DNA of 32,924 nucleotides from Alphaproteobacteria bacterium (GTDB taxonomy: Bacteria; Pseudomonadota; Alphaproteobacteria; Sphingomonadales; Sphingomonadaceae): assembly GCA_030426245.1 (NCBI GenBank), contig JAUHYZ010000027.1:1-32924 (forward strand), read 5' to 3'. How positions within the stretch are numbered: position 1 is the stretch's first letter; every line of letters begins with the position of its first letter. Shown here in pieces: positions 1-17,008 of the stretch. Below the pieces are notes generated by a model. That model ran no database searches, was not told the DNA's origin, and worked only from the letters and a program-made list of their open reading frames with translations. The position numbers and the translations under genes are program-made.

Positions 1-127
1 GCCGCGACCAGGCCCACCTCGACGATCGTCGGGACGATGTTGAACAGCAGGTAGTTGAGGAAGGTCGAGACGCTGCTCGTGCCGCGATCGATGTCGCGGG
101 CCACGGCGCCGGTCTTGCGATCGAGGG
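1..127 (-). pseudogene. Fragment of an Atm1-type ABC exporter (permease domain)
   Basis: Read on the minus strand from 125 down to the window edge, one open frame gives LDRKTGAVARDIDRG and then FLNYLLFNIVPT. This is the conserved transmembrane-domain signature of Atm1/HMT1-type ABC exporters, which move glutathione or heavy-metal conjugates across the inner membrane. The N-terminal part of such proteins should lie to the right, but at about 126 the frame gives way to an unrelated gene end on the other strand. The copy therefore lacks its start and roughly its first transmembrane segments. The rest lies outside the window on the left, so I cannot tell whether it is intact there. Family assignment rests on about 40 residues. 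Confidence 0.72.
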
Positions 128-332
128 TAGTATCGTCCTGGCTGACGAGATCGCGAAGAACGACACACCCCAGGCAGCATTCAAGGCCTATCGCGATCGC
201 CGATTCGATCGGTGCTCCTACATTGTTGATAAATCACTGGAAATATGCCGCGGTCAGCTCGGCAAGGGGCCCCCGGTCGACAATGCGAAGGCCACCGCGG
301 AAATGTTTGAAATCGTCGCTGAGCCCATCTGA
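126..332 (+). pseudogene. C-terminal remnant of an FAD-dependent monooxygenase
   Basis: The plus-strand frame ending at the TGA at 330-332 encodes 68 residues, including LADEI, TPQAAFKAYRDRRFDRC, LGKGPPVDN and TAEMFEIVAEPI. These match the C-terminal tail of class A flavoprotein hydroxylases of the salicylate/3-hydroxybenzoate type. No FAD-binding GxGxxG or other catalytic segment is present, because sequence upstream of about 126 belongs to an ABC exporter on the opposite strand. The remnant lies 33 bases before the dioxygenase gene and reads the same way, so the intact hydroxylase was probably the first gene of the catabolic operon. A hydroxylase making a catechol would fit a following extradiol dioxygenase. 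The truncation is seen; the former operon membership is inferred. Confidence 0.72.
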
Positions 333-365: not shown

Positions 366-1268
366 ATGAGCCGTGTGAATGAAATTCGCTATGTCGGCTA
401 CGGCGTTGAAGACTTTGATGCCGAGCGCAAATTCTATGCCGATGATTGGGGTCTGGTCGAGGTCGAGGCCAATGACGACACCGCCTGGTTCAAGACCCAT
501 GGTCATGACGAGCACCACGTGGTTCGCCTGCACAAGCGCGAGAGCAATTGCGTTGAAGTGATTGCCCTTGCCGCGGCGAGCAAGGCCGATGTCGATGCGC
601 TTCACGGAAAGGTGGCAGGCGCTGGCTGCAAGATCATTTTCGAGCCTAGCGCGCTTGATGCCCCCGGTGGCGGCTATGGCTTCCGCTTCTTTTCGCCCGA
701 CGGGCTGCCGTTCGAGATCAGCGCCGAAGTCGATACACTTGACAAGCGGGCGATGGAGCGGTGGGAAGGCATACCTGTAAAGATCAGCCACATTGTGCTG
801 CATTCGCCAGACCATCACGCGATGGTGAAGTTCTTTACCGATGTGCTGGGCTTCAAGGTCTCCGACTGGCTCGGAGATTTCATGTGTTTCCTGCGCTGCA
901 ATGAAGCCCATCACCGCCTTGCCGTCCTGCCCGGCCCGCCGTGCCTCAATCACGTCGCTTACGACATGCTTGGCGTTGACGACATGATGCGTGGCGCCAG
1001 CCGTTTGCGCAAACGCGGTACGGATATGCGCTGGGGCCCCGGTCGTCATACAGCGGGCAACAACACGTTCAGCTATTTCACCACGCCCGGCGGGTTTGCC
1101 GTCGAATACACTTCGGAACTGGAAGAAGTGGATTTCGAGAGCCACGAACCCAAGGTGCATGAGCCCGGTCCGCAGATAATGGACCAGTGGGGCATCGGCA
1201 CTGGCGGTCCGCAGACCATGCCAAAGCCGGCGCCTGACCCCTGCCTGTTTAAGCCGGCGGAGGCCTGA
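366..1268 (+). CDS. Type I extradiol (VOC-fold) ring-cleavage dioxygenase
   Basis: The product is 300 aa with two vicinal-oxygen-chelate modules (about 5-125 and 138-255), the layout of BphC-type extradiol dioxygenases. These Fe(II) enzymes open catechols next to the hydroxyls. The expected metal ligands are present in the C-terminal module: His142 (SHIVLHS), His196 (LNHVAYD) and Glu247 (AVEYTSE). A conserved active-site His228 lies in GPGRHTAGNN. I chose the ATG at 366 because AGGAAAG lies just upstream and MSRVNEIRYVGYG is a normal family N-terminus; an in-frame ATG at 333 would add an unlikely tail. It is the first intact gene of a nine-gene operon and sits 4 bases before the hydrolase that would take its product. 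The substrate (a bicyclic or substituted catechol) cannot be read from sequence. Confidence 0.9.
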   Translation: MSRVNEIRYVGYGVEDFDAERKFYADDWGLVEVEANDDTAWFKTHGHDEHHVVRLHKRESNCVEVIALAAASKADVDALHGKVAGAGCKIIFEPSALDAPGGGYGFRFFSPDGLPFEISAEVDTLDKRAMERWEGIPVKISHIVLHSPDHHAMVKFFTDVLGFKVSDWLGDFMCFLRCNEAHHRLAVLPGPPCLNHVAYDMLGVDDMMRGASRLRKRGTDMRWGPGRHTAGNNTFSYFTTPGGFAVEYTSELEEVDFESHEPKVHEPGPQIMDQWGIGTGGPQTMPKPAPDPCLFKPAEA

Positions 1269-1272
1269 TTCA

Positions 1273-2430
1273 ATGGCGCTTTACTCCCCTTTCAAGAACT
1301 ACATCTGGAACCTAAGCGTCGCCATCGCGATGGAAAGCGGCGGGCAGATCGGCGAGATTGTCGACATGTGCCAGCCGATCCTCGATGCGGCCAACAATGG
1401 CGCCGATGCCGGTACCCCGCAGTTCATGCAGGCTTGGGCAGCCATGGGCGAAAAGCTGCTCGAACTCGCCGCCGAAGACGAAGCGAAGGGGCGCGCCTTT
1501 TCGGCGTCGAACAAGCTCGAACGCGCTTCCCTCTACCTCCTCGTTGCCGAGCGCATGCAGGCGCACGGGTCGGAAGGTCGCAAGGAAACCTACGCGAAGG
1601 CTTTCCAGGCTTTCGAACGCTCGTCCACTCTCGGCAAGATCAACCGCGAGCGGGTGGAGGTGCCCTTGGCCAGTGGCACCATGCCAGCACTGTACACGCG
1701 CGCTCCCGGCAGTGGCCCCCGGCCTGTCGTCGTCTATTGCAATGGTCTCGATAGCTGCAAGGAGCTGCTTTACTGGACGCGCCTGCCGAATGAATTGGCG
1801 CGGCGCGGTATTTCGACCCTGTGCGTCGACCAGCCCGGGACTGGCGAGGCGCTGCGCTTGCAGGGCCTGCCAGTTGATCCACATAGCGAAAGCTGGGCCA
1901 GCAAGGCGGTCGACTGGCTGGCCCAGCAGGACGATGTCGATCCCAGCAAGATAGGCATGACCGGTATCTCGCTGGGCGGACATTTCGCACCGCGCGCGGT
2001 GGCCTATGAACCACGCTTTGCCAGCGGGGCTGTATGGGGAGCCAACCACAATTGGCGTGAAGTGCAGGACAAGCGGATGCAGCGCGAAGGGGAAAACCCC
2101 GTCCCGCATTACTGGCAGCATGTGCACTGGGCATTCGGGGCCGAGGGCCAAGAGGATTTCCTCGAGAAATCGACTGACATGAACCTCAATGGCCATATGG
2201 ACCGGATCAAGGTGCCCTTCCTCGTGACGCACGGTGCGAATGATCGCCAAATCAGCCCCGCTTATGCCGATGATCTATATGACCAGCTCATCAATTCCCC
2301 GCGCCGGGAAAAAGTGATCTTTACCGAACGCGAGGGCGGCGTGGAACACGTGGGCGCGGACAACATGGCCTATGGGCGCGACCTGCTTGCCGACTGGTTT
2401 GCCGAAACGCTGGGCGGAAGCACGGGATGA
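1273..2430 (+). CDS. Alpha/beta hydrolase, probable C-C bond (meta-cleavage product) hydrolase or esterase
   Basis: The 385-aa protein has a helical N-terminal domain (about 1-125) and an alpha/beta-hydrolase fold. The nucleophile elbow is GISLGG (Ser233), the acid is probably Asp324 (THGANDRQ) and the general base His359 (GGVEHVG). The long helical N-terminal extension resembles 2,6-dihydroxypseudooxynicotine hydrolase and FrsA/DUF1100-type enzymes. The former splits a C-C bond in nicotine catabolism. Position directly after the extradiol dioxygenase suggests it cleaves the ring-opened dienoate; an ester or lactone hydrolase is the alternative. The stop overlaps the next start in ATGA, which implies translational coupling. 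Confidence 0.82.
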   Translation: MALYSPFKNYIWNLSVAIAMESGGQIGEIVDMCQPILDAANNGADAGTPQFMQAWAAMGEKLLELAAEDEAKGRAFSASNKLERASLYLLVAERMQAHGSEGRKETYAKAFQAFERSSTLGKINRERVEVPLASGTMPALYTRAPGSGPRPVVVYCNGLDSCKELLYWTRLPNELARRGISTLCVDQPGTGEALRLQGLPVDPHSESWASKAVDWLAQQDDVDPSKIGMTGISLGGHFAPRAVAYEPRFASGAVWGANHNWREVQDKRMQREGENPVPHYWQHVHWAFGAEGQEDFLEKSTDMNLNGHMDRIKVPFLVTHGANDRQISPAYADDLYDQLINSPRREKVIFTEREGGVEHVGADNMAYGRDLLADWFAETLGGSTG

Positions 2431-2912
2431 CATCGGCGGCAGACAGCACGGGTCCTGGCGCGGACGCTTCCGGCTATATTGCGCGGGAAATGGCAGTCAG
2501 TGCGGCCATCAATGCTGTTATCAGCGTAGGCTTCTTTGTCGCTATATTCGGATTTGGGGCCTCCATTGAGATATGGGGCCTCGGCAAATTTGCCTTTGAT
2601 TTCCTGCCGCAGAGCCTTGCGGTGGCCTTCTTTGCCAGTTTCGTACCTTCGCTGCTGGCCAGAAAGGCGATGCTTGCCGAAACATTGGCATCGGCAACCA
2701 AGCCAGCGCCGAGCGTATCTTCGCTATTCGCAAAATCCATCCTGATCGTGTTGGCCGCCGTGATCCTCGGCACCGCAATATGGGCCGCAATCTTGTGGGC
2801 AAGCGGCACGGCGATGATCGCGCCGATACCGGCGTTTGCGCTCAAAATTGCTTACGGCGCAGCACTGGGAGCGTTTGTCACCCGCCGCCGCTTACAAGCC
2901 ATGTTGGAATGA
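2427..2912 (+). CDS. Small four-helix membrane protein of unknown function
   Basis: The 161-aa product is unrecognised. It has about four hydrophobic segments (roughly 24-46, 58-76, 103-128 and 131-150), a polar N-terminus and a basic end (TRRRLQ), consistent with an inner-membrane protein. No signal peptide or catalytic motif is seen. It overlaps the hydrolase stop by four bases and ends three bases before the P450 start, so it is embedded in the catabolic operon. A role in membrane insertion, substrate entry or P450 membrane context is possible but is only a guess from position. Confidence 0.72.
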   Translation: MTSAADSTGPGADASGYIAREMAVSAAINAVISVGFFVAIFGFGASIEIWGLGKFAFDFLPQSLAVAFFASFVPSLLARKAMLAETLASATKPAPSVSSLFAKSILIVLAAVILGTAIWAAILWASGTAMIAPIPAFALKIAYGAALGAFVTRRRLQAMLE

Positions 2913-2915
2913 GAT

Positions 2916-4115
2916 ATGACTGCGAGCCAAGCTGATCTGCCAACCCTCCCGCTGGACCCGTTCGACGAGGAGTTTCTTGCCAATCCCTTCGCCCATCACG
3001 GCGCGCTGCGCGATGCCGGATCGGTGGTCTGGCTCGACACGTACCAGATCTATGCCATGGCCCGCTTTGACGAGGTGCAGGCGGCCCTGCGCGATCATGA
3101 AACCTTCTGTTCCTCGCGCGGTGTCGGCCTTGCCGATTTCAGCAAGGAGGAGCCGTTTCGCGCGCCATCGCTCCTGCTGGAGACCGATCCGCCGCTGCAC
3201 AGCCAGACGCGCAAGCTGATGGGCAAGATCGTCTCGCTCAAGGCGCTCAAGCAATTGCGTCCGCAATGGCAGGAGAAGGCGCAGGCACTGGTGTCCAGCC
3301 TTATCGAAAAGGGGCAATTCGATGCGGCCACCGAGCTTGCGGAAGTGTTCCCGATGTTGGTCTTCCCCGACACGATCGGATTGATGGACGAAGGCCGCGA
3401 TAAGCTGATTGAATATGCCACCATCGTGTTCAACGGCTTCGGTCCGCGCAACCGCGTTTTTGAGCAAAGCCTGATTGGCAAGGAAGACGCCATCGCCTGG
3501 GTGGAAGAAGCCTGCAAGCGCGAAAATCTGAAGCCGGGCGGCTGGGGTATGGCGGTTTATGACGCGGTTGATGAGGCAGGGATGCCGCCTGACTATGCCC
3601 CTCGGCTGGTTCGCTCTTTCCTCACTGCAGGCGTCGATACTACGGTGAACGGTATCGGCCACCTGATGCTGGCACTTGGCAAATATCCGCAGGAGTTTGC
3701 CAAGCTGCGTGCTGATCCAAGGCTGGCAACGCGCGCATTTGAAGAAAGCTTGCGCTGGGATTCGACCGTCCAGACATTCTTCCGCACCACCAGCCGTGAT
3801 GTGGAAGTTGGCGGCACGATGATCCCGGAAGGCTCCAAGGTGCTGCTGTTCCTGGCATCCGCCAATCGTGATCCGCGCAGATGGGACGAGCCCGAGGAAT
3901 TCCGTATCGAACGGCCCGCAGGCGGGCATGTCGGCTTCGGCTTCGGCATCCACCAGTGTCTGGGCCAGATGGTCGCGCGGCTGGAAGGCGAACTGATCGC
4001 TACCGAGTTTGCAAAACAGGCCAGCTCAATCCGGCTGACGGGTGAGCCTGTCAGGCGCCTCAACAACACCTTGTGGGCAATTTCAAGCCTGCCGGTCGAA
4101 GTGGTCGGCAATTGA
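2916..4115 (+). CDS. Cytochrome P450 monooxygenase
   Basis: This is a full-length soluble bacterial P450 of 399 aa. The I-helix oxygen-activation motif is AGVDTT (238-243). The K-helix ExxR is Glu277-Arg280. The heme loop FGFGIHQCLG ends with the thiolate Cys348. There is no membrane anchor, as expected for class I P450s fed by ferredoxin and a ferredoxin reductase. A matching FAD reductase is the last gene of the same operon, but no ferredoxin is encoded here. The enzyme likely hydroxylates a hydrophobic substrate before or after ring cleavage; regioselectivity and CYP family are not assignable by eye. Its TGA lies inside the TTG start of the next gene. Confidence 0.95.
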   Translation: MTASQADLPTLPLDPFDEEFLANPFAHHGALRDAGSVVWLDTYQIYAMARFDEVQAALRDHETFCSSRGVGLADFSKEEPFRAPSLLLETDPPLHSQTRKLMGKIVSLKALKQLRPQWQEKAQALVSSLIEKGQFDAATELAEVFPMLVFPDTIGLMDEGRDKLIEYATIVFNGFGPRNRVFEQSLIGKEDAIAWVEEACKRENLKPGGWGMAVYDAVDEAGMPPDYAPRLVRSFLTAGVDTTVNGIGHLMLALGKYPQEFAKLRADPRLATRAFEESLRWDSTVQTFFRTTSRDVEVGGTMIPEGSKVLLFLASANRDPRRWDEPEEFRIERPAGGHVGFGFGIHQCLGQMVARLEGELIATEFAKQASSIRLTGEPVRRLNNTLWAISSLPVEVVGN

Positions 4116-4810
4116 CCGAGAGCGCCTTCCCCATCCTCTATTTTGCCCCACAAACCTGCGCCCGCGTCACGCTGACGGCGCTGGAAGAAATCGGCCTTCC
4201 TTTCGAAACCAGCCTGATCGCGTTCATGGCGGGCGAACATCGCAAGCCGGAATTTCTGGCGGTGAACCCGACGGGCAAGGTTCCGGCGCTGGAAACGCAG
4301 CATGGCGTCATCGTGCAGAACGGCGCAATCCTCAGCTATCTGGCGCAGACCTATCCCGAGGCTGGATTGTTGCCCCAAGCGGATGATGCCGCTGGCCGCG
4401 CCGCTATCCTTACCGAGCTTTTTCGCTGTTCAAGCGATCTGCACCCGCTTGTCACCCGCTTTGTCATGTCGCCCATGATCTCCACCGATGCCGCCGATGC
4501 ACCGCGTATCCGGGCGAAAGCGGCGGAGGGACTGGCCATGCAACTTGCTCCGCTGGAGCAGCGCCTATCTCGCCAACCATGGATGCTGGGAGAGGAGTGG
4601 TCGATCCTTGATGCCTATCTGGCGTGGATATGGTTCCGGATCACCGGTGCCGGCTTCGCCGCCGACGCATTTCCGACGCTCGAAGAGCACCATGCCAAGG
4701 CCAGCCAACGCCCCAGCGCGAAATCTGCCCTGGCGCGAGAGGCAAAGGCGCAGGATGAATTGAAGGCACGCGGATTATTCTTCACTCCGCCAAATACAGA
4801 CAGGGATTGA
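4112..4810 (+). CDS. Glutathione S-transferase family protein
   Basis: The 232-aa protein has a thioredoxin-like N-terminal domain (LYFAPQTCARVTLTALEEIG; cis-proline in KVPALE; glutathione-binding QNGAILSYL) and an all-helical C-terminal domain from about 90. The TTG at 4112 is preferred as start. It overlaps the P450 stop (TTGA) and gives MTESAFPILYFAP, which begins directly at the first beta strand; an upstream ATG at 4073 would lie deep inside the P450 gene. GSTs in aromatic operons detoxify epoxides, isomerise maleyl-type intermediates or cleave ethers. Which applies here is unknown. Cys in PQTC may play the beta-class Cys10 role. Confidence 0.86.
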   Translation: MTESAFPILYFAPQTCARVTLTALEEIGLPFETSLIAFMAGEHRKPEFLAVNPTGKVPALETQHGVIVQNGAILSYLAQTYPEAGLLPQADDAAGRAAILTELFRCSSDLHPLVTRFVMSPMISTDAADAPRIRAKAAEGLAMQLAPLEQRLSRQPWMLGEEWSILDAYLAWIWFRITGAGFAADAFPTLEEHHAKASQRPSAKSALAREAKAQDELKARGLFFTPPNTDRD

Positions 4811-4822
4811 GAGGGACAGATA

Positions 4823-5389
4823 ATGGCACTTGAGCCCACACGCCGCATAGTAACGGGACACAACGCCAGCGGGCAGGCAATCATTCAGGAAGACCGCCCC
4901 GTCCCGCGCTTTCAGCGCATTGGCGGCGATATCGGACCGATGTTCCATGAAGTGTGGAACACCCGCGCGACACCCGTGCCTATTGACGCCGATTCTGGCG
5001 AACCGCACGAAGATGGCATCCAGCTCGCGCCGCCGAAGAACGGCACGCGGATCCGGGTTCTCGATATTCCGCCTGATGCAGACAATCTCGATAATTTGAC
5101 TCCCGAACAGGCGCGCGCGCATTTCGCGGAAATCGGCGCGGAAGGCGCATCCTCGCACGGCGGTGCAGGTTCAAAGCATGCGCATATGCACCGCACCGAG
5201 ACGATCGACTACGGCATCGTGCTGGAAGGCGAGATCGTGCTGATCGTCGATGAGGGCGAAACAACCGTTCGGGCCGGAGACATCGTTATCCAGCGCGGCA
5301 CCAATCACGGTTGGGCCAACCGCACCGACAAGAATTGCCGCATCGCTTTCATTCTGATCGACGGCACTTTCGCGGAAGACCTCGCGTGA
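4823..5389 (+). CDS. Cupin-domain protein
   Basis: The 188-aa product carries one conserved cupin barrel in its C-terminal half. Motif 1 contains His119, His121, His123 and Glu126, ending in LEGE. Motif 2 is GDIVIQRGTNHGWAN with His162. Three histidines plus a glutamate usually bind Fe or Mn. The N-terminal 100 residues (NTRATPVPIDADSGEPHEDG) are typical of small cupins found beside aromatic catabolic genes. The length suits a single-cupin isomerase, dioxygenase or binding protein rather than a bicupin gentisate dioxygenase. GAGAGGGACAG precedes the ATG. The stop overlaps the GTG start of the FAH gene (GTGA). Confidence 0.8.
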   Translation: MALEPTRRIVTGHNASGQAIIQEDRPVPRFQRIGGDIGPMFHEVWNTRATPVPIDADSGEPHEDGIQLAPPKNGTRIRVLDIPPDADNLDNLTPEQARAHFAEIGAEGASSHGGAGSKHAHMHRTETIDYGIVLEGEIVLIVDEGETTVRAGDIVIQRGTNHGWANRTDKNCRIAFILIDGTFAEDLA

Positions 5390-6348
5390 GACTGGCCACG
5401 AGGCACGACGGCAGCCCGGACGGGGAACTCGTGGCCGTATCAGCTGATGGGGTGCGCTGCGTCGCGGCAGGCCCGAAGTGGCCCTGCCTGCGCCTTGCGC
5501 TTGAAAACTGGGAGCAGGCGCTACCGGATATTGCAGCGCTGAACCCGGAACAGGGTGAACCTCTCGATCCTTCTACCTGTCGCGCCCCTCTGCCGCGCGC
5601 CTGGCAGTGGCTGGATGGTTCGGTTTTCCCGACTCATGCGGAATTGATGCAAATTGCGTTCGGTCTCGATCCAATCGATACCGAGCGGCCGCTGATGTAT
5701 CAGGGCATGTCAGATCGTTTCTATGGGCCGACCGACGAGGTGGTTCTGCCCAGCCAGGAACACGGTATCGACTTTGAAGGCGAATATGCCGTGATCGTGA
5801 ATCAAGTGCCGATGGGAACTTCGGCTGCCGATGCGATGGATCACATCAAGCTGGTGGTGCAACTCAACGATTGGTCGCTGCGCGCCATCGCTCCGGTGGA
5901 AATGAAGACCGGTTTTGGCTGGGTGCAGGCCAAGCCTGCATGTTCGATGGCACCTTTCGCTGTTACACCCGATGAACTGGGTGAAGGCTGGCAGGATGGG
6001 CGCGTCTGCCTGGACCTGGAAATCGAATGGAACGGCCGCAAGTTTGGCCATGCCAATGGCAAGGCGATGCTGTTTGGATTCCACGAACTGGTTGAGCATG
6101 CGGCACTTTCCCGCGATTTGGTGGCGGGCACCATCATCGGATCGGGCACTGTCTCCAACGCTAACTATGCGGAGGTCGGCTCCAGCTGCATTTCCGAGGT
6201 GCGGGCGATCGAGATGATTGCAGACGGCAAGGCAAGCACGTCCTTCATGGCATTTGGTGACAGCGTCCGAATGGAAGCGCGCACCAGCTCTGGCTCCGCG
6301 CCGTTTGGTGCCATCGATCAGCGGGTTGGCCCCCTGTTAGACAAGTAA
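5386..6348 (+). CDS. Fumarylacetoacetate hydrolase (FAH) family protein
   Basis: The 320-aa product has the FAH C-terminal fold. The metal ligands are Glu131 and Glu133 (DFEGEYAV) and Asp162 (QLNDWSLR), followed by GFGWVQAKPACSMAP and a GSGTVSNAN turn. Family members hydrolyse C-C bonds of acylpyruvates or hydrate and decarboxylate 2-oxo-dienoates in aromatic catabolism, usually with Mg or Mn. I start it at the GTG at 5386 because this overlaps the cupin stop and gives MRLATRHDGSPDGELV, a normal FAH N-terminus. It is a candidate for the step after the alpha/beta hydrolase, acting on a 2-hydroxydienoate or an acylpyruvate. Confidence 0.86.
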   Translation: MRLATRHDGSPDGELVAVSADGVRCVAAGPKWPCLRLALENWEQALPDIAALNPEQGEPLDPSTCRAPLPRAWQWLDGSVFPTHAELMQIAFGLDPIDTERPLMYQGMSDRFYGPTDEVVLPSQEHGIDFEGEYAVIVNQVPMGTSAADAMDHIKLVVQLNDWSLRAIAPVEMKTGFGWVQAKPACSMAPFAVTPDELGEGWQDGRVCLDLEIEWNGRKFGHANGKAMLFGFHELVEHAALSRDLVAGTIIGSGTVSNANYAEVGSSCISEVRAIEMIADGKASTSFMAFGDSVRMEARTSSGSAPFGAIDQRVGPLLDK

Positions 6349-6358
6349 TCGCAGCTTG

Positions 6359-7180
6359 ATGCCGGACCAGAACAAACAACTCCAAGCAAGATATCGGATG
6401 CCGCGATGCTTTGGGTATGCGCCCGGACCGCGCAACCTTCCAGCTGATCAGCGCCACCGGCGTCATGATAAAGAGGTGGTGTCCTGGACCATTTCTGCGC
6501 GCACAGATCCTCACCAACTGGAGCAATTCCTGCCCGGAGGTCTGGCGCTGTTTGGTGAGGCCCGCCTGGAAATATGTGTGATGAGCTTTCGCAAGCTGGG
6601 CTGGCTTGCAGGGCGCGGTTACGACATCGTGATAGTGCGGATCCCCGCTTGCTGGACAGAAGGGCAGGTAGATAGCTCTGGTTACTTTGTCCCGGTGGTG
6701 TGGGAGAATATGGCCGATCCCATAATCACCGGGCGAGAAGAGCTGGGCTGGCCAAAAATTTTCGCCGACATTTCAGTACAGAATGCGCCTGCGGACCCCT
6801 GGCAGTGTTCGGCATCGTGGGACGGTCATGGCTTCTTCGAATTCGAAGCCTCGGAGTTCAACGAAGCCGTTTCGGATACCAAGCAAATGACCATGGTATT
6901 TGAAAAATATGTACCATCGACAGGTGACGGCGAGGCTACGGATGCCCACTACTTGACGATCACAGCGCCTGATGGACCGGAGCCGCAAATCCGTTCAGTC
7001 ATGAACGGTGCGGGCCGGTTCAGCTTCCGCCGTGCAAGTTGGGAACAAATGCCAACCCAATATCCGATAGTGAACGCCCTTGCGGCATTGCCACTGCATG
7101 ATTTCAGTCCGGTCGTCAGGATATCGTCATCTTCGGGAGGAGACGGCAGCGCCCAAAGGAAACTGGTGACCAAGCAATGA
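6359..7180 (+). CDS. Acetoacetate decarboxylase-like protein
   Basis: The 273-aa protein matches the acetoacetate decarboxylase superfamily. It has the N-terminal [12 protein letters not shown] element, the central [14 protein letters not shown] segment and the late NGAGRFSF motif. Clostridial acetoacetate decarboxylase forms a Schiff base on the first Lys of a PKK pair. Here only one Lys (133) is present in WPKI, with Ile in place of the second. Superfamily relatives without the pair can act as aldolase-dehydratases rather than decarboxylases, so the reaction is uncertain. The ATG at 6359 has a poor ribosome site; a later ATG at 6398 is possible. The TGA overlaps the next start (ATGA). Confidence 0.82.
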
Positions 7181-8418
7181 TGAAAGCAAGGCAAGCGGAC
7201 ACGGTCATAGTGGGAGCTGGTCACGGGGGCGCTCAGGCGGCGATTGCCCTGCGAAAGGAAGGCTACGCAGGGACGGTCCTGCTGATCGGCAGCGAAAGGC
7301 AATTGCCCTATGATCGCCCGCCACTTTCCAAGGAATATCTTGCCCGCGAGAAACCGTTCGAGCGGATCGTGATGCGCCCGGAGCAATTTTGGGCGGACAA
7401 GGAGGTGGAGCTTCTCCTCGGGGCGGCGGTGACCAAAGTCGATGCACAGGAAAGGCGTCTGACACTGGATGATGGCGGCACTGTTTGTTTCGGCAAGCTG
7501 ATCTGGGCGGCAGGCGGTAATCCGCGCCGGTTGACTTGCGAAGGTGCCGATTTGCAGGGCGTGCATTCGATCCGGAACAAGGCCGATATCGATGCTGTCA
7601 TGGCGCAGCTGGATGCTGGTGCGCGCAAGGTGGTTGTCATCGGCGGCGGCTATATCGGTCTGGAAGCTGCTGCGGTTCTGAGGAAACTGGGGTGCGAAGT
7701 AACCGTGATTGAGGCGCTTGACCGCGTATTGGCGCGCGTCGCGGGCGAAGACCTCTCGCGTTTCTTCGAGGAAGAGCACCGCCGACAGGGCGTGGACTTG
7801 CGGCTTGGCGCAAAGGTGGATCGCATCCAGGGCAGCGGCACGCGTGTTACCAGAGTAAAGCTTGCAGATGGCGAAGTTGTCGCCTGCGACTTGGTGATCG
7901 CGGGGATCGGGATCGTGCCTTCAGCACAGGTGCTGGCCGATGCCGGTGTAAGAGCCCCGAATGGCGTGGCGGTGGACGAATATTGCCGTACCAGCCTGCC
8001 TAACGTCTATGCGATCGGCGACCTTGCGCTGCATGCCAACAGCTTTGCCGACGGCGCGATGATCCGGCTCGAAAGTGTGCAGAACGCCAATGATAGGGCC
8101 AACACAGTGGCAAAGGACCTTTGCGGCAATCCTGCGGCCTATACCGCAACGCCCTGGTTCTGGTCCAATCAGTATGATCTGAAGCTGCAAACAGTCGGCC
8201 TTTCGATTGGTCATGACCAGACCGTACTCCGCGGCGACCCGGCCACGCGCAGCTTTTCGGTGATCTATCTGAAAGCAGGACAGGTCAGAGCGCTCGATTG
8301 CGTGAATGCGATGAAGGACTATGTGCAAGGCCGCAAACTGGTCGAAGCGCGCGCCGAAATCGCACCTGAGACGTTGGCCGATAAAGAGACCCCGCTGAAG
8401 CAGATGGCGCAAAACTGA
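7177..8418 (+). CDS. FAD-dependent NAD(P)H:ferredoxin/rubredoxin reductase
   Basis: The 413-aa protein has the full putidaredoxin-reductase-like architecture: an FAD Rossmann motif near the N-terminus ([11 protein letters not shown]), [13 protein letters not shown], a second NAD(P)H Rossmann motif ([11 protein letters not shown], about 150-160), the FAD-closing motif YAIGDLA and a C-terminal reductase domain with [12 protein letters not shown]. Such enzymes reduce a [2Fe-2S] ferredoxin that feeds a class I P450 or a Rieske oxygenase. The P450 in the same operon is the obvious partner. No ferredoxin gene lies between or next to them, so the carrier must be encoded elsewhere. It is the last gene of the catabolic operon. 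Confidence 0.93.
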
Positions 8419-8872
8419 AACAGGTTGTCGCTCAGTTGAGAGCGCCGTCACCGCCCCCGGCACTGGTCTCAGTTCCCTTGGTCATGTCAGACTAACGTTG
8501 CAGTCGCCGAAGTCGACTGCTGACGCGCTGCAGCGGCGAACAGAGCTGCCATCTTGCCAACGGCTCAGTTCGCGCCTTGCGATCGTGACCGAGATTGGCG
8601 CCAACTGCGGAATGTCCGTTTCTAGGTCCGTCTGGGCAATAGCAGACAGTCCGCTCACGGCCCAATTGCTGAAGTTAGTTTGGTGAGGGCTGAACGTCCG
8701 CTAACCACCAAATGTCAGACATCCAGCCACCACTTCGCTTCGCTCAATACCAGCCGTAAGATTTGGAATACTGCAAGGCTCAAGCTTTCGGGTGTCTCGC
8801 CGAATAGGCAGCACCCGGATAACTAGGTCCGATTATTCCTAGGACTTCCTCCTTGACGTCGCCCGCGTAGAT
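8419..8872. other. Gene-free stretch between the catabolic operon and the recombinase
   Basis: No supported gene is seen. A small hairpin, CGCTC-6-GAGCG at 8429-8444, follows the reductase stop but has no T-run, so it is at best a weak terminator. From about 8616 to 8715 there is a patch with repeated GTCCG words (at 8619, 8629, 8649 and 8697) and a short GTCTG...CAGAC stem. It resembles degenerate interspersed repeat material rather than coding sequence. A further CTAGG...CCTAG dyad lies at about 8823-8841. The downstream boundary is the recombinase stop codon. Confidence 0.5.
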
Positions 8873-9418
8873 TCAGTTGCTGTTGAGTGCTCGGTATACA
8901 CTGGCACGCCCAATCCCGAGCTGCTTTGCGATCTCAGTACCGCCGAAACCTTCGTCACGAAGCTTGCGGACAGCGGCGACATCCACGGAAGGCTTGCGGC
9001 CTCGATAGACACCTGCTGCTTTGGCTCGCTCGATACCCTCTCGCTGACGTTCTCGCCGAATGTCAGCCTCGAACTCGGCGATCGATGCGAGCACGCCAAG
9101 TAGCAGTTTTCCGGTGCTGCTGGTTGTGTCCATCCCTGGCTGCTGGATGCAGTGAAAGCACGCACCTTTGTCGGACAGCTGGCGAATGATTGCATGCAGA
9201 TCACCAGCCGAACGAGCCAGGCGATCGAGACGGGTCACAACGAGAGTGTCACCTTCACGAACGAACGACATCGCTTCTTCGAGCTGGTCGCGCTGAACGG
9301 TGCTGGTACCACTTCGCTTCTCCGAGATGACTTTCTCGCATCCTGCAGCCTCCAATGCTTCAAGCTGCACACCGAGAGATTGCCCAACAGAACTTACGCG
9401 AGCGTACCCAACCAGCAT
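8873..9418 (-). CDS. Serine recombinase (Tn3-type resolvase/invertase family)
   Basis: The 181-aa product has the small serine recombinase layout: catalytic domain with the nucleophile in GYARVSS (Ser9), VTRLDRLARS in the active site, the long E helix (LLLGVLASIAEFEADIRRER) and a C-terminal helix-turn-helix (GTEIAKQLGIGRASVYRAL). Length matches Tn3-type resolvases. The ATG at 9418 is chosen because AAGGTGG precedes it at normal spacing; an upstream extension to 9460 has no support. No transposase gene accompanies it. A dyad-rich region just upstream (9432-9497) may be its recombination site. Invertase versus resolvase activity cannot be decided from sequence. Confidence 0.93.
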   Translation of the reverse strand: MLVGYARVSSVGQSLGVQLEALEAAGCEKVISEKRSGTSTVQRDQLEEAMSFVREGDTLVVTRLDRLARSAGDLHAIIRQLSDKGACFHCIQQPGMDTTSSTGKLLLGVLASIAEFEADIRRERQREGIERAKAAGVYRGRKPSVDVAAVRKLRDEGFGGTEIAKQLGIGRASVYRALNSN

Positions 9419-9431
9419 CAATAACCACCTT

Positions 9432-9497
9432 GTCTCAATAGCTTTTAGACCATTGAGCAATGGTGTCCCAAAATTGCGGAGTCAACCCTATTGAGAC
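9432..9497. repeat. Nested inverted repeats upstream of the recombinase, candidate res/crossover site
   Basis: A perfect 10-base inverted repeat GTCTCAATAG (9432-9441) / CTATTGAGAC (9488-9497) encloses a perfect palindrome ACCATTG-AG-CAATGGT (9449-9464). Weaker TTTTAGAC / GTGTCCCAAAA symmetry surrounds the palindrome. Resolvase res sites are built from dyads directly upstream of the recombinase gene and also act as its operator. Position and symmetry fit; the family-specific sequence cannot be confirmed here. Confidence 0.45.
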
Positions 9498-9658
9498 GGC
9501 TTGGCATGTCTATTGCTGCCTCATGTAATTGCCTCGTTAGGGTATACCCATCGGGGACTGGAATTGGGCCGATTGGAGACTGTCAGCCTTTTTGTCCGCA
9601 AAAGGTCAAACGCTGCCTTAAGAAGACAATGCATTAGACCCTAGAGCCGCGTAGCAAC

Positions 9659-10222
9659 CTAGGCTTCAAATCCCTTTGCCAACGCATTCAAGCCAAGATC
9701 GAAATCCGATGAAAAATCGATCATCTGTGCCAGGTGATTGTTGAAACGCTCGTTCTGTTCAAAGACTAGCCAACCGATTGTGAACGAGACAACGGCCGTG
9801 TGCACCTTCATGGCCGCCTGCATACTGATGCCGCTCTCACGCAAGGGAAGGTATAGCTCATCCATAATCTCACTGACCTTGTCCGGCCAAGGACCGGCAA
9901 GCACGCACAGTTTTGCTGAATCCCGCACCCTCGACAGTCCAGCCCGAAATGCCGTTCCGAATTGTACCAGAAATGCACGCCAATTTTCAGTCGGTGCGAC
10001 CGAGTGGAAGGCGGCCCTATGGATAGTGTTGACCATCAGGCTGATGAGATCTTCCTTGCTGGCAATATGACGATAGAGTGAAGATTGCTGAACCCCGAGA
10101 CGTTTCGCCAACGTTCGCATGCTGAGCGCCTCAAAGCCTTCTTCCTGCAATTGATCGAATGCTGCTGCGACAATTCTGTCTTGGCTCAGTTTCATCGCTC
10201 GGTCGTGCACCACTTCATCCAT
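9659..10222 (-). CDS. TetR/AcrR-family regulator (TetR_C type)
   Basis: The 187-aa product begins its DNA-binding domain at MKLSQDRIVAAAFDQLQEEG and has the HTH MRTLAKRLGVQQSSLYRHIASKEDLI. This aligns closely with the tetracycline-repressor subgroup rather than AcrR-like members. The C-terminal ligand/dimer domain ends in LGLNALAKGFEA. The start is uncertain: ATG 10222 (used here) or ATG 10195, both with weak ribosome sites. The GTG at 10252 would lie inside the presumed operator. It is divergent from the SnoaL-like/DoxX-like/SDR operon, the usual arrangement for a local repressor of that operon. The effector is unknown. Confidence 0.88.
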   Translation of the reverse strand: MDEVVHDRAMKLSQDRIVAAAFDQLQEEGFEALSMRTLAKRLGVQQSSLYRHIASKEDLISLMVNTIHRAAFHSVAPTENWRAFLVQFGTAFRAGLSRVRDSAKLCVLAGPWPDKVSEIMDELYLPLRESGISMQAAMKVHTAVVSFTIGWLVFEQNERFNNHLAQMIDFSSDFDLGLNALAKGFEA

Positions 10223-10223
10223 A

Positions 10224-10259
10224 TTGACAAACCCATACGGGTTTGCGAACACTGTTCGC
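10224..10259. promoter_or_regulatory. Two overlapping palindromes, likely TetR operators in a divergent promoter
   Basis: CAAACCC-ATAC-GGGTTTG (10228-10245) and GCGAAC-ACT-GTTCGC (10245-10259) are both perfect and share one base. The second resembles operators of TetR_C-type repressors. A plus-strand TTGACA (10224-10229) is a consensus -35 partly inside the first palindrome, with only a weak -10 candidate (AACACT, 10248-10253). Binding here would block both divergent promoters. Confidence 0.62.
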
Positions 10260-10319
10260 TAAATCGAGTTGATGGCGATGTCGACTGCTAAATCAACCAA
10301 CTTAATCCAGGAGAGAATG

Positions 10320-10853
10320 ATGGCGTTAAAGAGGTCAATGGCGGCATTGCTGGTTCTGCCGATCGGGCTCTGTAGCTTACACGGCACGGCTATCGGTCAA
10401 ATTATTCCGCCGGAAAGCTCCATTCAAACCGAGGCCGACCGCAGTGCTTGGGAAGCCGAGGACACATCGCCCAAAGCCGTCGTGGACAAATTCAACCAGC
10501 TAGCCTTCTTCGATGGCAAACCGATCGAGGCGATCAAGAAGTATATTTCGGACGACTTCATCGAGCGCAATCCAGATTTCGCCAATGACGACTTCGCGAC
10601 CGATAAGGAAGCGATCCTGAACTTCTTCGAAACTCGCGGCTGGAAGGAAGGCGAGCAGAATAGCGATACGATCTATCAGGTTATCGCGGAAGGCGACCGG
10701 GTGGTTGTATTTCACCATGTAAAGATGAACCCGGAAGACCGCGGCATTGCCTTTGTCGATATCTTTCGCGTGAAAGACGGTCTGATCGTCGAACATTGGG
10801 CGGTGGGCCAACCCGTTCCCGACACGGTCTCCCCTCGCCACAGCATGTTCTGA
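10320..10853 (+). CDS. Exported SnoaL-like (NTF2-fold) protein
   Basis: The 177-aa product starts with a signal peptide (MALKRSMAALLVLPIGLCS, likely cut near AIGQ) and is followed by an NTF2/SnoaL-like domain. Typical features are VVDKFNQLAFFDGKPIEAIKKY, IERNPDF, RVVVFHHVK and the closing IFRVKDGLIVEHW. Family members bind or isomerise small hydrophobic compounds; an enzymatic role is not certain. Two ATGs sit in tandem (10317, 10320). The second has better spacing to the strong AGGAGAG at 10309. It is the first gene of the operon controlled by the divergent TetR gene. Confidence 0.83.
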   Translation: MALKRSMAALLVLPIGLCSLHGTAIGQIIPPESSIQTEADRSAWEAEDTSPKAVVDKFNQLAFFDGKPIEAIKKYISDDFIERNPDFANDDFATDKEAILNFFETRGWKEGEQNSDTIYQVIAEGDRVVVFHHVKMNPEDRGIAFVDIFRVKDGLIVEHWAVGQPVPDTVSPRHSMF

Positions 10854-10938
10854 CGCTCAATTCGAAACCGCAAGCTTAGCCCAGGCAAGACATCGCGCCC
10901 GTTGCGCGCGTCTGGCCTGCGGGCTGGAGAAATATCTC

Positions 10939-11607
10939 ATGACCCAATATGAGCAGGACACCACATCGTCGCATTCGCAAAGCGCCGGCTGGTTCGTGGC
11001 GACGGTTTACGCGGTGCAATTCTTCTTCGGAGGATGGTTCCTCTTCCACGGACTCAATTTCTTCGTGGAATTCTTCGTTCAGCCAGCAGGCTCATCGTCC
11101 ATCGCAAGCGAAGTGATTTCCGCGCTCATTCACTCCGGGCTGTTCGCCGTGGTCAAGGCGATAGAGGTGGTGGTTGGTATAGCCCTCCTTGCCAACCGGT
11201 TTGTACCATTGGCAGTGGTTTCAGCTTTTCCGGTTTCATTTTCGATTGCCTACATCAATCTGTTCGCCAATGGCGACACCATGAGCATTGTTGTGGCGAT
11301 TACGGTGATCGCACTCAATTCTGTGATTGCTCTGGGCCATATGGACCGGTTTTGGCCAATATTGGCCTATAATCAGGGCGATCCGAATATAGCCGGGCTG
11401 GTTCCGTATCCCGGAGAGGCGGTTCCCGCCACGCGGCGTCCAACTTCAAGCCTCGCAATGCGCGGCTGGCTCCACGCCCTTTGCATCATTGCCGGTATTC
11501 TCGCCCCAATTGGCGTGACGTTGCTGACAACACAGGATGGTGGCTTTCGGAGCCTGGAACACTATCGCGGCGTGACCGGCAATGCCGATCCTCACTCGGC
11601 CGACTGA
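10939..11607 (+). CDS. DoxX-like integral membrane protein
   Basis: The 222-aa product has about five hydrophobic segments (18-46, 58-85, 87-108, 115-134 and 177-196). GWFLFHGLNFF near the first helix and the later helix order resemble DoxX/DoxD-like membrane proteins, which are linked to quinone or thiol redox in the membrane. No catalytic motif is visible, so the function is open. GGAG lies 9 bases before the ATG. The 85-base gap to the SnoaL-like gene contains no clear terminator, so cotranscription is likely. The SDR gene follows 33 bases later. Confidence 0.68.
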   Translation: MTQYEQDTTSSHSQSAGWFVATVYAVQFFFGGWFLFHGLNFFVEFFVQPAGSSSIASEVISALIHSGLFAVVKAIEVVVGIALLANRFVPLAVVSAFPVSFSIAYINLFANGDTMSIVVAITVIALNSVIALGHMDRFWPILAYNQGDPNIAGLVPYPGEAVPATRRPTSSLAMRGWLHALCIIAGILAPIGVTLLTTQDGGFRSLEHYRGVTGNADPHSAD

Positions 11608-11640
11608 ACCAGAAAACACTAACGAGCAGGAAGAAGAACG

Positions 11641-12390
11641 ATGTCTGAGCTTATGGGCAAAGTTGCCGTGATCACAGGTGCCTCACGCGGAATAGGGGCC
11701 GCATTCTCGCGGGCTATTGCCGCCAAAGGTGCAAAGGTCATGCTGGCAGACATCTTGGACAGTGGATCTGTCGTCAAGGAAATCGAAGCGGCGGGAGGTC
11801 TGGCTCACGAGGTCATATGCGACGTATCGTCGCCCGATGCTGTGTCGAAACTGGAGCAAGAGACAAGAGAAGCATTTGGTGATGTCTCAATCCTCGTAAA
11901 CAACGCAGGGCTGCATCCAAAGCCGATGCCTTTCGAGGAATTGGACTTCCATTATTGGCAGCACACCATGGCAGTGAACCTCAATGCCATGTTCCTGACG
12001 ATGCAAGCCTTCCTGCCCCACCTGAAGCGCAATGGCTGGGGCCGAATTATCAATGTCTCGTCTTCGTCCGCCAACACCGCACCGCCCAATGGAATGCCTT
12101 ACGTCACGAGTAAGGCGGGCGTAGTTGGGCTGACCCGGGCAGCAGCGACCGAGTTCGGAAAATACAACATCACTGTTAACGCAATTGCGCCAAATCCGGT
12201 CAGGACGCCAGGCGCAGACGACATTCTGCCCGAAGCGATGTATCAGGCGATTGCCGATACGCAGCCAATCGCACGCGTGATGGAGCCCAAGGACGTAGTT
12301 GGAACTCTATTGTTTCTGTGTTCGAACGGCAGCGAGTTCATGACTGGTCAGAACCTCCATGTCGACGGAGGAACGGTAAGAGCTGGATAG
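11641..12390 (+). CDS. Short-chain dehydrogenase/reductase (SDR)
   Basis: This is a classical 249-aa SDR: cofactor motif TGASRGIG (12-19), NNAG (87-90), catalytic Ser in NVSSSS (140-142), Tyr154 and Lys158 in YVTSKAG, and a C-terminal HVDGGT. The Asp at LADILD after the second strand suggests NAD(H) preference. These enzymes oxidise or reduce alcohol/ketone groups; the substrate is unknown. AGGAAGAAG precedes the ATG. It is the last gene of the TetR-linked operon, followed by a hairpin at 12394. Confidence 0.93.
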   Translation: MSELMGKVAVITGASRGIGAAFSRAIAAKGAKVMLADILDSGSVVKEIEAAGGLAHEVICDVSSPDAVSKLEQETREAFGDVSILVNNAGLHPKPMPFEELDFHYWQHTMAVNLNAMFLTMQAFLPHLKRNGWGRIINVSSSSANTAPPNGMPYVTSKAGVVGLTRAAATEFGKYNITVNAIAPNPVRTPGADDILPEAMYQAIADTQPIARVMEPKDVVGTLLFLCSNGSEFMTGQNLHVDGGTVRAG

Positions 12391-12393
12391 ATC

Positions 12394-12417
12394 TTTCGCA
12401 GTTCTGTATCTGCGAAA
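12394..12417 (+). terminator. Hairpin after the SDR gene
   Basis: TTTCGCAG (12394-12401) and CTGCGAAA (12410-12417) form a perfect 8-base stem with an 8-base loop, four bases after the SDR stop. No long T-run follows (CTTACGTG), so termination may be inefficient or the site may be an operator. The remaining bases up to 12550 show nothing clear apart from GTCCGC-containing repeat-like sequence near 12488. Confidence 0.4.
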
Positions 12418-12550
12418 CTTACGTGTAGTTGTTCCACACCAATCCAGCCGTCACGCATAACCTGATGGCTCCAAGGCCGCCGCTTTGTCCGCAACGACGT
12501 CCTGCAGGAAAGGCATGCATGGCCGGAATGCGCCTGACCGCTTTCAATAT

Positions 12551-13102
12551 TTATCCTAGAGCTTCATAATGGCGCTGCAGAACCGCCAAAATGCGTCCAA
12601 ACTCTTCCACCGAAATGTCATCGGCAGGTTGCTCTGGGAGTTGTCGCGCTTCCAACATTTGACTCGCAATCTGCACACTTAAGTCAGCCAAGCGGATCAT
12701 TTCGTTGCCCGTGATCGCGGCCCGATCAAATACCTCTGAATATGAAAGCTTGTCACTTCGATGAGCAAACAGTTGGTCTCTGAATTGACGGACTTTCAAC
12801 GTGATTGGTTCCGCCTCCGCAATGAGACCCGAGGCTATTCCATCGAGTTGTTTGGATAGCCTCTTGAAACGTATCGTTCCGTGTCGATCTCCAAAAAGGC
12901 TGTGCGTGGTTACCATAAATGCGATGAATTGTGCGTGTTCGACGAATCGCCACGCACCCCAATGCTCGTCCAATGCCTCGTGAAACAGTGAGCGACCAGC
13001 GGCGCTCGCCGTGGTCCACCAAAGGCCGCAATGCACGCGTGCTCGGACAGCAAGCTTAGCGGCCCTCACAATCTGGTCGTCCAAAGGCAGCGGCTTTGCC
13101 AT
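12551..13102 (-). CDS. HEPN (AbiU2-like) domain protein
   Basis: The 183-aa, mostly helical protein has the HEPN-type motif RDQLFAH (Arg108 to His114) followed by RSDKLSYSEVFDRA. This is characteristic of the AbiU2-like HEPN group. HEPN proteins are often RNases in abortive infection or toxin-antitoxin pairs, and the Arg and His are the usual catalytic residues. No nucleotidyltransferase or recognisable antitoxin is next to it, and the next minus-strand gene upstream is separated by a strong terminator. The family call is by eye and the nuclease role is inferred. No good ribosome site precedes the ATG at 13102, so the start is moderately certain. Confidence 0.65.
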   Translation of the reverse strand: MAKPLPLDDQIVRAAKLAVRARVHCGLWWTTASAAGRSLFHEALDEHWGAWRFVEHAQFIAFMVTTHSLFGDRHGTIRFKRLSKQLDGIASGLIAEAEPITLKVRQFRDQLFAHRSDKLSYSEVFDRAAITGNEMIRLADLSVQIASQMLEARQLPEQPADDISVEEFGRILAVLQRHYEALG

Positions 13103-13223
13103 TGCACCATATTAGACAACTTGAAGGCTTCAGCGCACTTAATTCTGCCAGCGTCCGCTATCTGGACTGCAATTTTCTCCTTAGAAAGTCAGCATTTGGC
13201 GCAATGCTGCCGCCTTCGCTAAG

Positions 13224-13254
13224 AGCCTGGCCGGAATGGTTCTCCGGCCAGGCT
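13224..13254 (-). terminator. Strong hairpin terminator for the 13263-13859 gene
   Basis: AGCCTGGCCGGA (13224-13235) and TCCGGCCAGGCT (13243-13254) form a perfect 12-base GC-rich stem with a 7-base loop. It lies 8 bases past the stop of the minus-strand gene. There is no T-tract, but stem strength and position fit a terminator. A smaller CAGCATT / AATGCTG dyad lies at 13190-13209. Confidence 0.65.
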
Positions 13255-13262
13255 GCTAGCGA

Positions 13263-13859
13263 TCATCTCGATTTCTTCGGCAAGATCAGCTCATAGTCAG
13301 GTGGAAGTATGCGAAGGAATTCACCCTCCACGCCTGCAATTCCGACGATGCCGTCTTCCATATCGTCTCGCAGTGTAACCAGCCCGCCGGTCAATTCCCA
13401 GCGAGAGCGAAGATGGATTGTGAATCGTGTGGGAAGTTCGCCCCAGCGATCGAGGTGCCATGCGCAATAGACGCTGGTCGCTTCTTCGAAGCTAGTCGCA
13501 AAAACCCTAGCGTCATCGCCTTCATCAGCCGTTGCACGAAAATAGCGAACAGAAGGCTCGGGGGGGGCGAGATATCCGAGCGGGTCAGATTGGGGCTCAC
13601 CGACCATCCACCGGTGCTCTAAGGACGACCAGTAACCTATCCCTGATGCTCCGAGGGCCGAAGCTTTTGCCATGTGAGGGCGTGCTGCCACCCAGGTTTC
13701 ATTATAAATGCAGATGTTATCGGTGTCTGTCGGCTGGTCGGCATGATGTGTGCTGACCCATTGTTGATAGATCGTTTCGGCTTGGCTTGCTCCTGATGCA
13801 AAGATCGTCACAGGGACGTCCGCCCAGCTCCGGGTGAACTCGAACACTTTAATCGTCAT
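13263..13859 (-). CDS. Hypothetical protein
   Basis: I do not recognise this 198-aa protein. It begins MTIKVFEFTRSWADVPVTIFASGAS and contains two parts of similar style, TIFASGASQAETIYQQWVSTHH and VFATSFEEATSVYCAWHLDRW. These look like a duplicated unit (an aromatic-rich strand, then a helix beginning after ASG/ATS and ending in a Trp). It has no signal peptide or membrane segment. ATG 13859 is chosen over the upstream start because GAGG lies 8 bases before it and the added N-terminus would be low-complexity. The gene is alone between a terminator and a gap of about 275 bases (13860-14134) in which I see no gene. It is probably island cargo. Confidence 0.7.
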   Translation of the reverse strand: MTIKVFEFTRSWADVPVTIFASGASQAETIYQQWVSTHHADQPTDTDNICIYNETWVAARPHMAKASALGASGIGYWSSLEHRWMVGEPQSDPLGYLAPPEPSVRYFRATADEGDDARVFATSFEEATSVYCAWHLDRWGELPTRFTIHLRSRWELTGGLVTLRDDMEDGIVGIAGVEGEFLRILPPDYELILPKKSR

Positions 13860-14134
13860 TTGATAACCTCGTCGTTTGCTTGACGAGATCACTGTGTGTG
13901 AGACCGCATTGGAAGTCGGGTGGGCAATGCGCACGCTTTGCAGCTGGGTAGAGCTTGTATGGCAGGCTGGTTCAGAAGGCGTGTGCGCAGATCTCAGAGC
14001 TAGATCATGTTAATCTGCTCGAGGAAGCGCGTAGGGCGTCTAATTAAGGTTCTGACTTGTTAGGGTGCGATCTCAGATCATCGCGTTCAGCCGCATCCTG
14101 GAGAGCCGACAAAAATCGGAAATAATCCTGCGCT

Positions 14135-14605: not shown

Positions 14606-14633
14606 CGAGCCCCTGCTCCAACTTGCATGTCTA

Positions 14634-14715: not shown

Positions 14716-14783
14716 ATGTGCGTATCTGAGTCGGCTCCCTTTCGATTGTCGAATGGGCTTCGAAACGAAGGAGCAAATCGAAT

Positions 14784-17003: not shown

Positions 17004-17008
17004 AATCG

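Follow-up and report, generated by a model that had tools for sequence, protein, structure and literature searches.

A sphingomonad ring-cleavage operon with a CYP199-like P450, probably a variant of flavonoid A-ring meta-cleavage

Here, we analysed a 32,924-nt stretch of DNA from an Alphaproteobacteria bacterium of the Sphingomonadaceae (assembly GCA_030426245.1, contig JAUHYZ010000027.1), which as a whole we call the window. At positions 366..8418 it carries a catabolic operon that we read, with moderate confidence, as a sphingomonad variant of flavonoid A-ring meta-cleavage, in which a CYP199-like P450 likely O-demethylates the released B-ring acid. All nine open reading frames are complete, lie on the + strand and are separated by eight gaps of 4, -4, 3, -4, 12, -4, 10 and -4 bases, which confirms the nine-gene coupled catabolic operon proposed by the first-pass annotation. 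The enzyme classes named there (extradiol dioxygenase, DHPON-like hydrolase, P450, glutathione S-transferase, cupin, fumarylacetoacetate hydrolase, acetoacetate-decarboxylase-like protein and ferredoxin reductase) likewise held, with Pfam assigning eight of the nine proteins. The small membrane protein, presented there as unknown, indeed had zero matches in Pfam or NCBIfam. The genes of the window considered here, with the basis of each assignment, are:

99..332, + strand: 3' end of a flavin monooxygenase (FMO), FdeE/IfcA-like; tblastn with a relative (locus L010), the rest lying on contig C40
366..1268, + strand: VOC-family extradiol dioxygenase; Pfam Glyoxalase, PDB 3b59, alignment to 1han BphC
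1273..2430, + strand: alpha/beta hydrolase (ABH) of the DHPON hydrolase/Ayg1 type; best PDB matches 2jbw and 8qd7
2427..2912, + strand: small membrane protein (MEM), 161 residues with about three hydrophobic segments; hydropathy peaks
2916..4115, + strand: CYP199-like P450; 49.5% identity to CYP199A4, contacts conserved
4112..4810, + strand: glutathione S-transferase (GST), TTG start; Pfam GST_N/GST_C
4823..5389, + strand: single-domain cupin, 188 residues; Pfam Cupin_2, comparison with loci L102 and L103
5386..6348, + strand: fumarylacetoacetate-hydrolase (FAH) family protein, GTG start; Pfam FAA_hydrolase and FAA_hydro_N_2
6359..7180, + strand: acetoacetate-decarboxylase-like (ADC) protein; Pfam ADC, alignment to 3cmb
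7177..8418, + strand: FAD ferredoxin reductase (FdR) of the putidaredoxin-reductase/arene-dioxygenase-reductase kind; pyridine-nucleotide reductase and Reductase_C domains, PDB 3lxd

These nine genes are not the whole unit, since the monooxygenase is cut by the contig end and its remainder lies on C40 of the same assembly (93 contigs, 79% complete). In L010, the locus most closely related to this one (dioxygenase 93%), a flavin monooxygenase precedes the dioxygenase, and tblastn with this full-length protein placed its residues 1-306 at C40:2-919 on the - strand (87%) and its residues 285-372 at window 66-329 (88%). C40:1-34 overlaps window 99-132 at 97% (34 bases), and DNA similarity to L010 starts at window 99 and continues at 85%, with no match for window 1-98. 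Further genes follow on C40:

C40:923-1930: metallo-beta-lactamase-fold (MBL) gene
C40:1933-4446: TonB receptor gene
C40:4527-5426: LysR gene, divergent

The gaps from the MBL gene through the ferredoxin reductase gene are no longer than 33 bases, and 80 bases lie before the LysR gene. The full unit is likely a twelve-gene operon with a divergent LysR gene (LysR / TonB-MBL-FMO-VOC-ABH-MEM-P450-GST-cupin-FAH-ADC-FdR), for which we infer the join between C40 and C20, the window's contig.

Which known pathway does this unit resemble? The fde-like plasmid operons of Diaphorobacter (L102) and Burkholderia (L103), which presumably match fde gene by gene, combine genes for a hydrolase, a VOC protein, a Rieske protein, a FAD monooxygenase, an MFS protein, a cyclase, a cupin, a FAH protein and an epimerase. 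Compared with these two operons, the hydrolase of the window is 52-53%, its FAH protein 47-55% and its cupin 45-47% identical. The monooxygenase of L010 is 36-37% identical to those of L102 and L103, and all three pass NCBIfam NF005313. It is through these proxies that we draw the likeness to fde of Herbaspirillum seropedicae and ifc of Variovorax V35, both of them A-ring pathways (PMC11069340; fde also PMC8552027). In fde, FdeE and the Rieske protein FdeD jointly hydroxylate C8 of naringenin ahead of A-ring fission (PMC8552027); in ifc, IfcA hydroxylates daidzein at C8, IfcB cleaves, and the IfcD cupins transform the remaining pyranone (PMC11069340). With fde of H. seropedicae, judged via the proxies, our unit shares the flavin monooxygenase, VOC dioxygenase, DHPON-like hydrolase, cupin, FAH protein and LysR regulator, and the shared logic would be A-ring hydroxylation followed by meta-cleavage. 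Its counterparts in the isoflavone pathway ifc of Variovorax V35 are the IfcA monooxygenase, the IfcB VOC protein, the DHPON-like locus 59470 and the IfcD cupins (PMC11069340). It differs from fde in lacking the Rieske, cyclase and epimerase genes, in a VOC dioxygenase of another subfamily and in the added TonB, MBL, P450, GST, ADC and ferredoxin reductase genes; from ifc it differs in the same way. The first-pass annotation had seen no obvious known counterpart, a view that has to be given up for the core: in fde (naringenin) and ifc (isoflavone), an A-ring hydroxylase and a VOC dioxygenase are combined with cupins and a DHPON-like hydrolase gene. An identical cluster with a proven substrate, which would give the substrate of this one, was not found in the open-licence literature searched.

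The single enzymes were assigned as follows. The dioxygenase is close to PDB 3b59 (513 bits), and its predicted metal ligands H142, H196 and E247 align with the positions in 1han BphC that we take to be the extradiol ligands. The best PDB matches of the hydrolase are 2jbw (DHPON hydrolase, 3e-18) and the Ayg1-like 8qd7, both C-C-cutting enzymes; with Ser233, Asp324 and likely His359 as its predicted residues, it is likely a C-C (1,3-diketone) hydrolase. For the GST, cis-trans isomerisation of the ring-cleavage product is a possible role. The ADC-like protein has 3cmb as its sole PDB match (E 0.01) and conserves the putative Schiff-base residue Lys133 (GWPK); decarboxylation is its putative function. 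The ferredoxin reductase ranks PDB 3lxd highest (613 bits), ahead of 3fg2, putidaredoxin reductase and then the biphenyl dioxygenase reductases, and stays below the cut-off of the HcaD model (328.5 against 450 bits). 3lxd and 3fg2 are reductases that presumably pair with P450s, and the reductase is likely the partner of the P450.

Over 392 residues, the P450 shares 49.5% identity with CYP199A4, slightly under the 51% given as a low value within CYP199A (PMC11530827). The substrate contacts of CYP199A4 are R92, S95, L98, F182, F185, R243, S244 and A248, among which R92, S95 and S244 bind the carboxylate (PMC11854964). All of these, together with D251, T252 and F298, are retained in the eight dioxygenase-adjacent P450s, the window's included, while two of the eight, the one in the window among them, have Thr in place of S247, and one has Ala in place of V295. 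The equivalents in the related PbdA, Arg84, Ser87 and Ser237, hold the carboxylate group of the substrate, and enzymes in which they are replaced bind and demethylate p-methoxybenzoate less well; veratrate, like p-methoxybenzoate, is demethylated by CYP199A enzymes, and 4-methoxybenzoate and isovanillate are substrates of CYP199A-type enzymes (PMC11530827). Based on its sequence, the window's P450 is likely an O-demethylase of a p-methoxy aromatic acid. It shares its substrate contacts with CYP199A4 and PbdA and has a ferredoxin reductase encoded in the same operon; it differs from them in sitting inside a ring-cleavage operon, with no ferredoxin gene in the window.

A search for the P450 family returned 17 matches in 16 of 397 genomes of the Sphingomonadaceae, 16 matches when the organism's own is set aside. 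Five of the six P450s at an identity of at least 58% lie within 10 kb of the dioxygenase. None of the ten at 54% or less lies near a dioxygenase, hydrolase or monooxygenase, with three of these stretches shortened by contig ends, one of them to 7 kb. G315 and G077 of this survey are, judged by their length, the same contigs as loci L010 and L019 of the locus scan described below, which means that the two P450 surveys share members. In an unrooted tree of 22 rows, 11 operon-labelled P450s and one other are separated by a 100/100 branch from CYP199A4 and nine others; in the same tree, the grouping of the cluster P450s as one clade gave a p-AU of 0.324. L127, operon-labelled in this tree, is without a dioxygenase or hydrolase match.

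How widely is the gene set conserved? We scanned the best 80 of 207 loci around dioxygenase relatives, with flanks up to 10 kb; this choice favours near relatives, the presence thresholds were set by us, and distant genes fall outside the flanks. The order dioxygenase-hydrolase-P450-cupin-FAH-ADC, for which the first-pass annotation had proposed a search among sphingomonads, recurs in Alteraurantiacibacter aestuarii JCM 16339 (L014). There, eleven of the twelve genes (TonB-MBL-FMO-VOC-ABH-MEM-P450-GST-cupin-FAH-ADC) stand in identical order on one contig. Their identities are 38% (TonB), 70% (MBL) and 78% (FMO) to L010, and 87% (VOC), 82% (ABH), 58% (MEM), 87% (P450), 87% (GST), 80% (cupin), 75% (FAH) and 70% (ADC) to the window. 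Its LysR-type gene (37%) is oriented in the same way as the operon, unlike the divergent LysR gene on C40. Across the 80 loci, the hydrolase was found in 78, the monooxygenase in 72, the FAH protein in 63, a cyclase (PF04199) in 42 and the cupin in 32; the trio of monooxygenase, dioxygenase and DHPON-like hydrolase is complete in 72. Accessories are rarer, with the GST in 20 loci, relatives of the membrane protein in 10, the P450 in 7 and the ADC-like protein in 2. The ferredoxin reductase reached the threshold in none of the 80, with one partial match (57%) at the edge of L075 below the length threshold.

Cyclase and cupin exclude each other among these loci: 42 carry the cyclase only, 32 the cupin only, 6 neither and none both. 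The fde-like L102 and L103, which lie outside the 80, carry both. The window is of the cupin type. Among the 80 loci, the GST is mostly accompanied by the cupin (17 of 20), as is the MBL gene (20 of 26), counts whose statistics ignore kinship.

A link to plant polyphenols comes from C-glycoside deglycosidases. The dioxygenase (E 1e-125 or better) occurs in 49 of the 397 family genomes and the C-glycoside deglycosidase beta family PF19906 in 23, with PF19906 in none of 14 control genomes. Of the PF19906-positive genomes, 22 of 23 carry the dioxygenase, as do 27 of the 374 PF19906-negative ones (Fisher 1.5e-21, not corrected for relatedness and assuming that both counts drew on the same 397 genomes), and in 12 of the 22 the two genes lie within 20 kb. 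PF19906 was found in 16 of the 80 loci, 15 of them of the cyclase type. Indeed, the cyclase-type sister loci hold C-glycoside deglycosidase beta, TIM-barrel and GMC oxidoreductase genes beside the shared core, as in the dfg/dgp/car clusters; these clusters differ from ours in that no C-glycoside deglycosidase was found in the window or its own assembly. Because the substrates of C-glycoside deglycosidases include C-glycosides of flavonoids, xanthones and anthraquinones (PMC8563793), the co-occurrence points to plant polyphenols generally, not to flavonoids alone.

We propose the following pathway. A flavonoid-type compound would be imported by the TonB receptor and hydroxylated on ring A, adjacent to an existing hydroxyl, by the FdeE/IfcA-like flavin monooxygenase, whereupon the VOC dioxygenase would open ring A beside both hydroxyls, and the GST and FAH proteins may isomerise and trim the acyl-pyruvate-like chain. 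Opened as in ifc, ring A of a flavone would leave a 6-aryl pyranone. The cupin may open and decarboxylate this pyranone, akin to the action of the IfcD cupins on the isoflavone pyranone (PMC11069340), and the DHPON-like hydrolase would cut the resulting 1,3-diketone to a benzoic acid, while the ADC-like protein could remove CO2 from a 3-oxo acid or catalyse a retro-aldol break. A 4'-methoxy B ring would be freed as 4-methoxybenzoate or isovanillate; the P450 and the ferredoxin reductase would then convert a 4-methoxybenzoate-type acid to 4-hydroxybenzoate, to be passed on to protocatechuate by PobA, for which the organism's own genome scores above the model cut-off at C60:270091-271254. Demethylation after ring cleavage would explain why a small-acid P450 is part of a ring-cleavage operon. 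Most of the genes would be accounted for by a 4'-O-methyl flavone, for example acacetin or diosmetin, with the membrane protein and the metallo-hydrolase standing outside the scheme.

Several observations speak against this pathway. The flavonoid substrate is a prediction. The 36-37% identity of the L010 monooxygenase to those of L102 and L103 is low, NF005313 is a broad model named hypothetical protein, and IfcA and FdeE, at 36% identity, act on different substrates (PMC11069340). Between the dioxygenase and the VOC proteins of L102 and L103, identity reaches only 32-33% over about 122 residues, which places the dioxygenase in another VOC subfamily and not with the FdeC/IfcB type. No Rieske (FdeD-like) gene is present among the nine genes, nor do the short gaps leave room for one between the MBL and reductase genes, and a ferredoxin motif search of the window found no ferredoxin gene; ten Fer2 matches lie elsewhere in the genome. 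In Variovorax V35, the DHPON-like hydrolase gene (locus 59470) is reported to be dispensable, its loss being without effect (PMC11069340). At the set thresholds, the hydrolase is absent from 2 and the monooxygenase from 8 of the 80 loci, with a looser search detecting both in L045. The sixth P450 at no less than 58% identity (G273, 61%) adjoins FAH, cupin and a 39% monooxygenase, with no dioxygenase or hydrolase match. PF19906 was found within 10 kb in none of the 32 cupin-type loci and is missing from the organism's own assembly, so that the deglycosidase evidence comes from the sister type. The join of C40 and C20 rests on the 34-base overlap and homology.

The same hydroxylation and meta-cleavage could serve another plant polyphenol whose ring is of the resorcinol or phloroglucinol kind, for example a xanthone, chromone, anthraquinone or dihydrochalcone; we consider this rather unlikely. 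It would suit a dioxygenase of a different VOC subfamily from the fde-like one, and the deglycosidase co-occurrence fits xanthones and anthraquinones too (PMC8563793). The hydrolase, cupin, FAH protein and monooxygenase nevertheless follow the fde-like set, and the CYP199 pocket points to a p-methoxy aryl acid, as could come from a flavonoid B ring but not readily from a xanthone. This pocket could alternatively place the P450 at the start of a route for lignin-type or simple p-methoxybenzoates, with the other genes handling later products. The conserved contacts, the PobA gene and the known demethylation of p-methoxybenzoate and veratrate by CYP199A (PMC11530827) agree with it; we judge it improbable, as the P450 is optional (7 of the 80 core loci) and such a route would need no VOC dioxygenase and DHPON-like hydrolase of this kind.

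Ring cleavage of a steroid, alkylphenol or diterpenoid had been suggested by the first-pass annotation, and a set of extradiol dioxygenase, P450 and ferredoxin reductase is indeed steroid- or terpenoid-like. Moreover, on a plasmid of the estrogen degrader Novosphingobium sp. ES2-1 there is a cluster whose monooxygenase (42%), hydrolase (45%) and FAH (59%) proteins are related. A similar cluster, however, lies on N. aromaticivorans pNL2, the dioxygenase reaches 59.8 bits where the HsaC model NF045631 demands 450, the P450 contacts are those for small p-substituted acids, and glycosidase and C-glycoside deglycosidase genes adjoin the sister loci; this idea thus found no support and is very improbable. 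Least of all do we expect a gentisate- or homogentisate-type route with the cupin as ring-cleavage dioxygenase, the GST as maleyl isomerase and the FAH protein as fumaryl hydrolase. These three gene classes do stand side by side, but the cupin is a single domain of 188 residues with no gentisate dioxygenase match among the NCBIfam models, the GST scores 76.9 against the MaiA cut-off of 171.05 bits and the FAH protein 34.7 against 375.3 bits for fumarylacetoacetase. At the set thresholds, the GST is absent from 60 and the cupin from 48 of the 80 core loci.

Related clusters were also seen elsewhere. The organism's own genome holds two further monooxygenase-VOC-FAH clusters, at C9:8000-24000 (L100) and C60:8000-22000 (L101), whose VOC proteins are 47% and 29% identical to that of the window; L100 also carries TonB, cupin, GST, amidohydrolase, MBL and MFS genes and three FAH-family genes in all. 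The clusters of N. aromaticivorans pNL2 (L106) and Novosphingobium sp. ES2-1 (L107) hold several VOC genes together with monooxygenase, hydrolase, FAH and cupin genes, and L106 additionally histidinol-dehydrogenase- and sulfatase-like genes. L104 (Bradyrhizobium) has the monooxygenase alone and L105 (K84) a scattered set. Among plasmid matches, 6 of 20 listed in one search and 6 of 60 listed in another were examined. The protein searches covered the best 120 of 2697 and the best 120 of 2857 matches, and no Herbaspirillum name was among the 120 of the second.

At the left end, window 1-98 looks like a foreign contig end and is probably an assembly artefact; positions 27-113 resemble C28:26862-26948 at 70%. 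The idea that window 1-332 is a truncated monooxygenase fused to an ABC-transporter fragment, and thus the sign of a broken pathway, was refuted: the remainder of the gene is on C40, and only positions 1-98 are foreign. At the end of the operon, 8300-8900 was scanned for terminators, which yielded a single weak site on the + strand (8816-8831) and a further one on the - strand, against 0.5 expected. The guanine-plus-cytosine content of window 8001-19000 is low, at 52-57% between flanks of 57-63% (left) and 60-68% (right). This stretch, which adjoins the operon, carries a resolvase (8873-9460), an integrase (17234-18331) and a tRNA-Gly (18390-18463), as well as a DUF5131 protein (14784-15569), and has the look of a genomic island; within window 8400-20300, repeats of at least 25 bases, whether direct or inverted, were not found. 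TetR, SnoaL-like, membrane protein and SDR genes occupy 9659-12390, and members of the SnoaL and SDR protein clusters (20 and 24) occur at 11 and 9 loci, counting the window.

In summary, the logic of the cluster is known and its composition is new, with another dioxygenase subfamily, no Rieske partner, an exchange of cupin and cyclase, and a P450 module. The genetically proven A-ring-cleaving flavonoid operons in the literature searched are fde and ifc, both from betaproteobacteria. We tentatively speculate that sphingomonads may own a separately assembled flavonoid-eating system with a core built on a non-FdeC dioxygenase, in which the cyclase, and with it C-deglycosylation, was exchanged for cupin and GST, and in which one lineage recruited its own CYP199 branch for demethylation of the freed B ring, giving a complete 4'-O-methylflavone route that would be covered by no described operon. 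The cluster offers a named carrier strain, a testable compound class and a P450 with a predictable product. With the operon, these bacteria could use methylated plant phenols as food and, as the dioxygenase is present in 49 of the 397 family genomes, a widespread way of using carbon from plant polyphenols may be going unnoticed.

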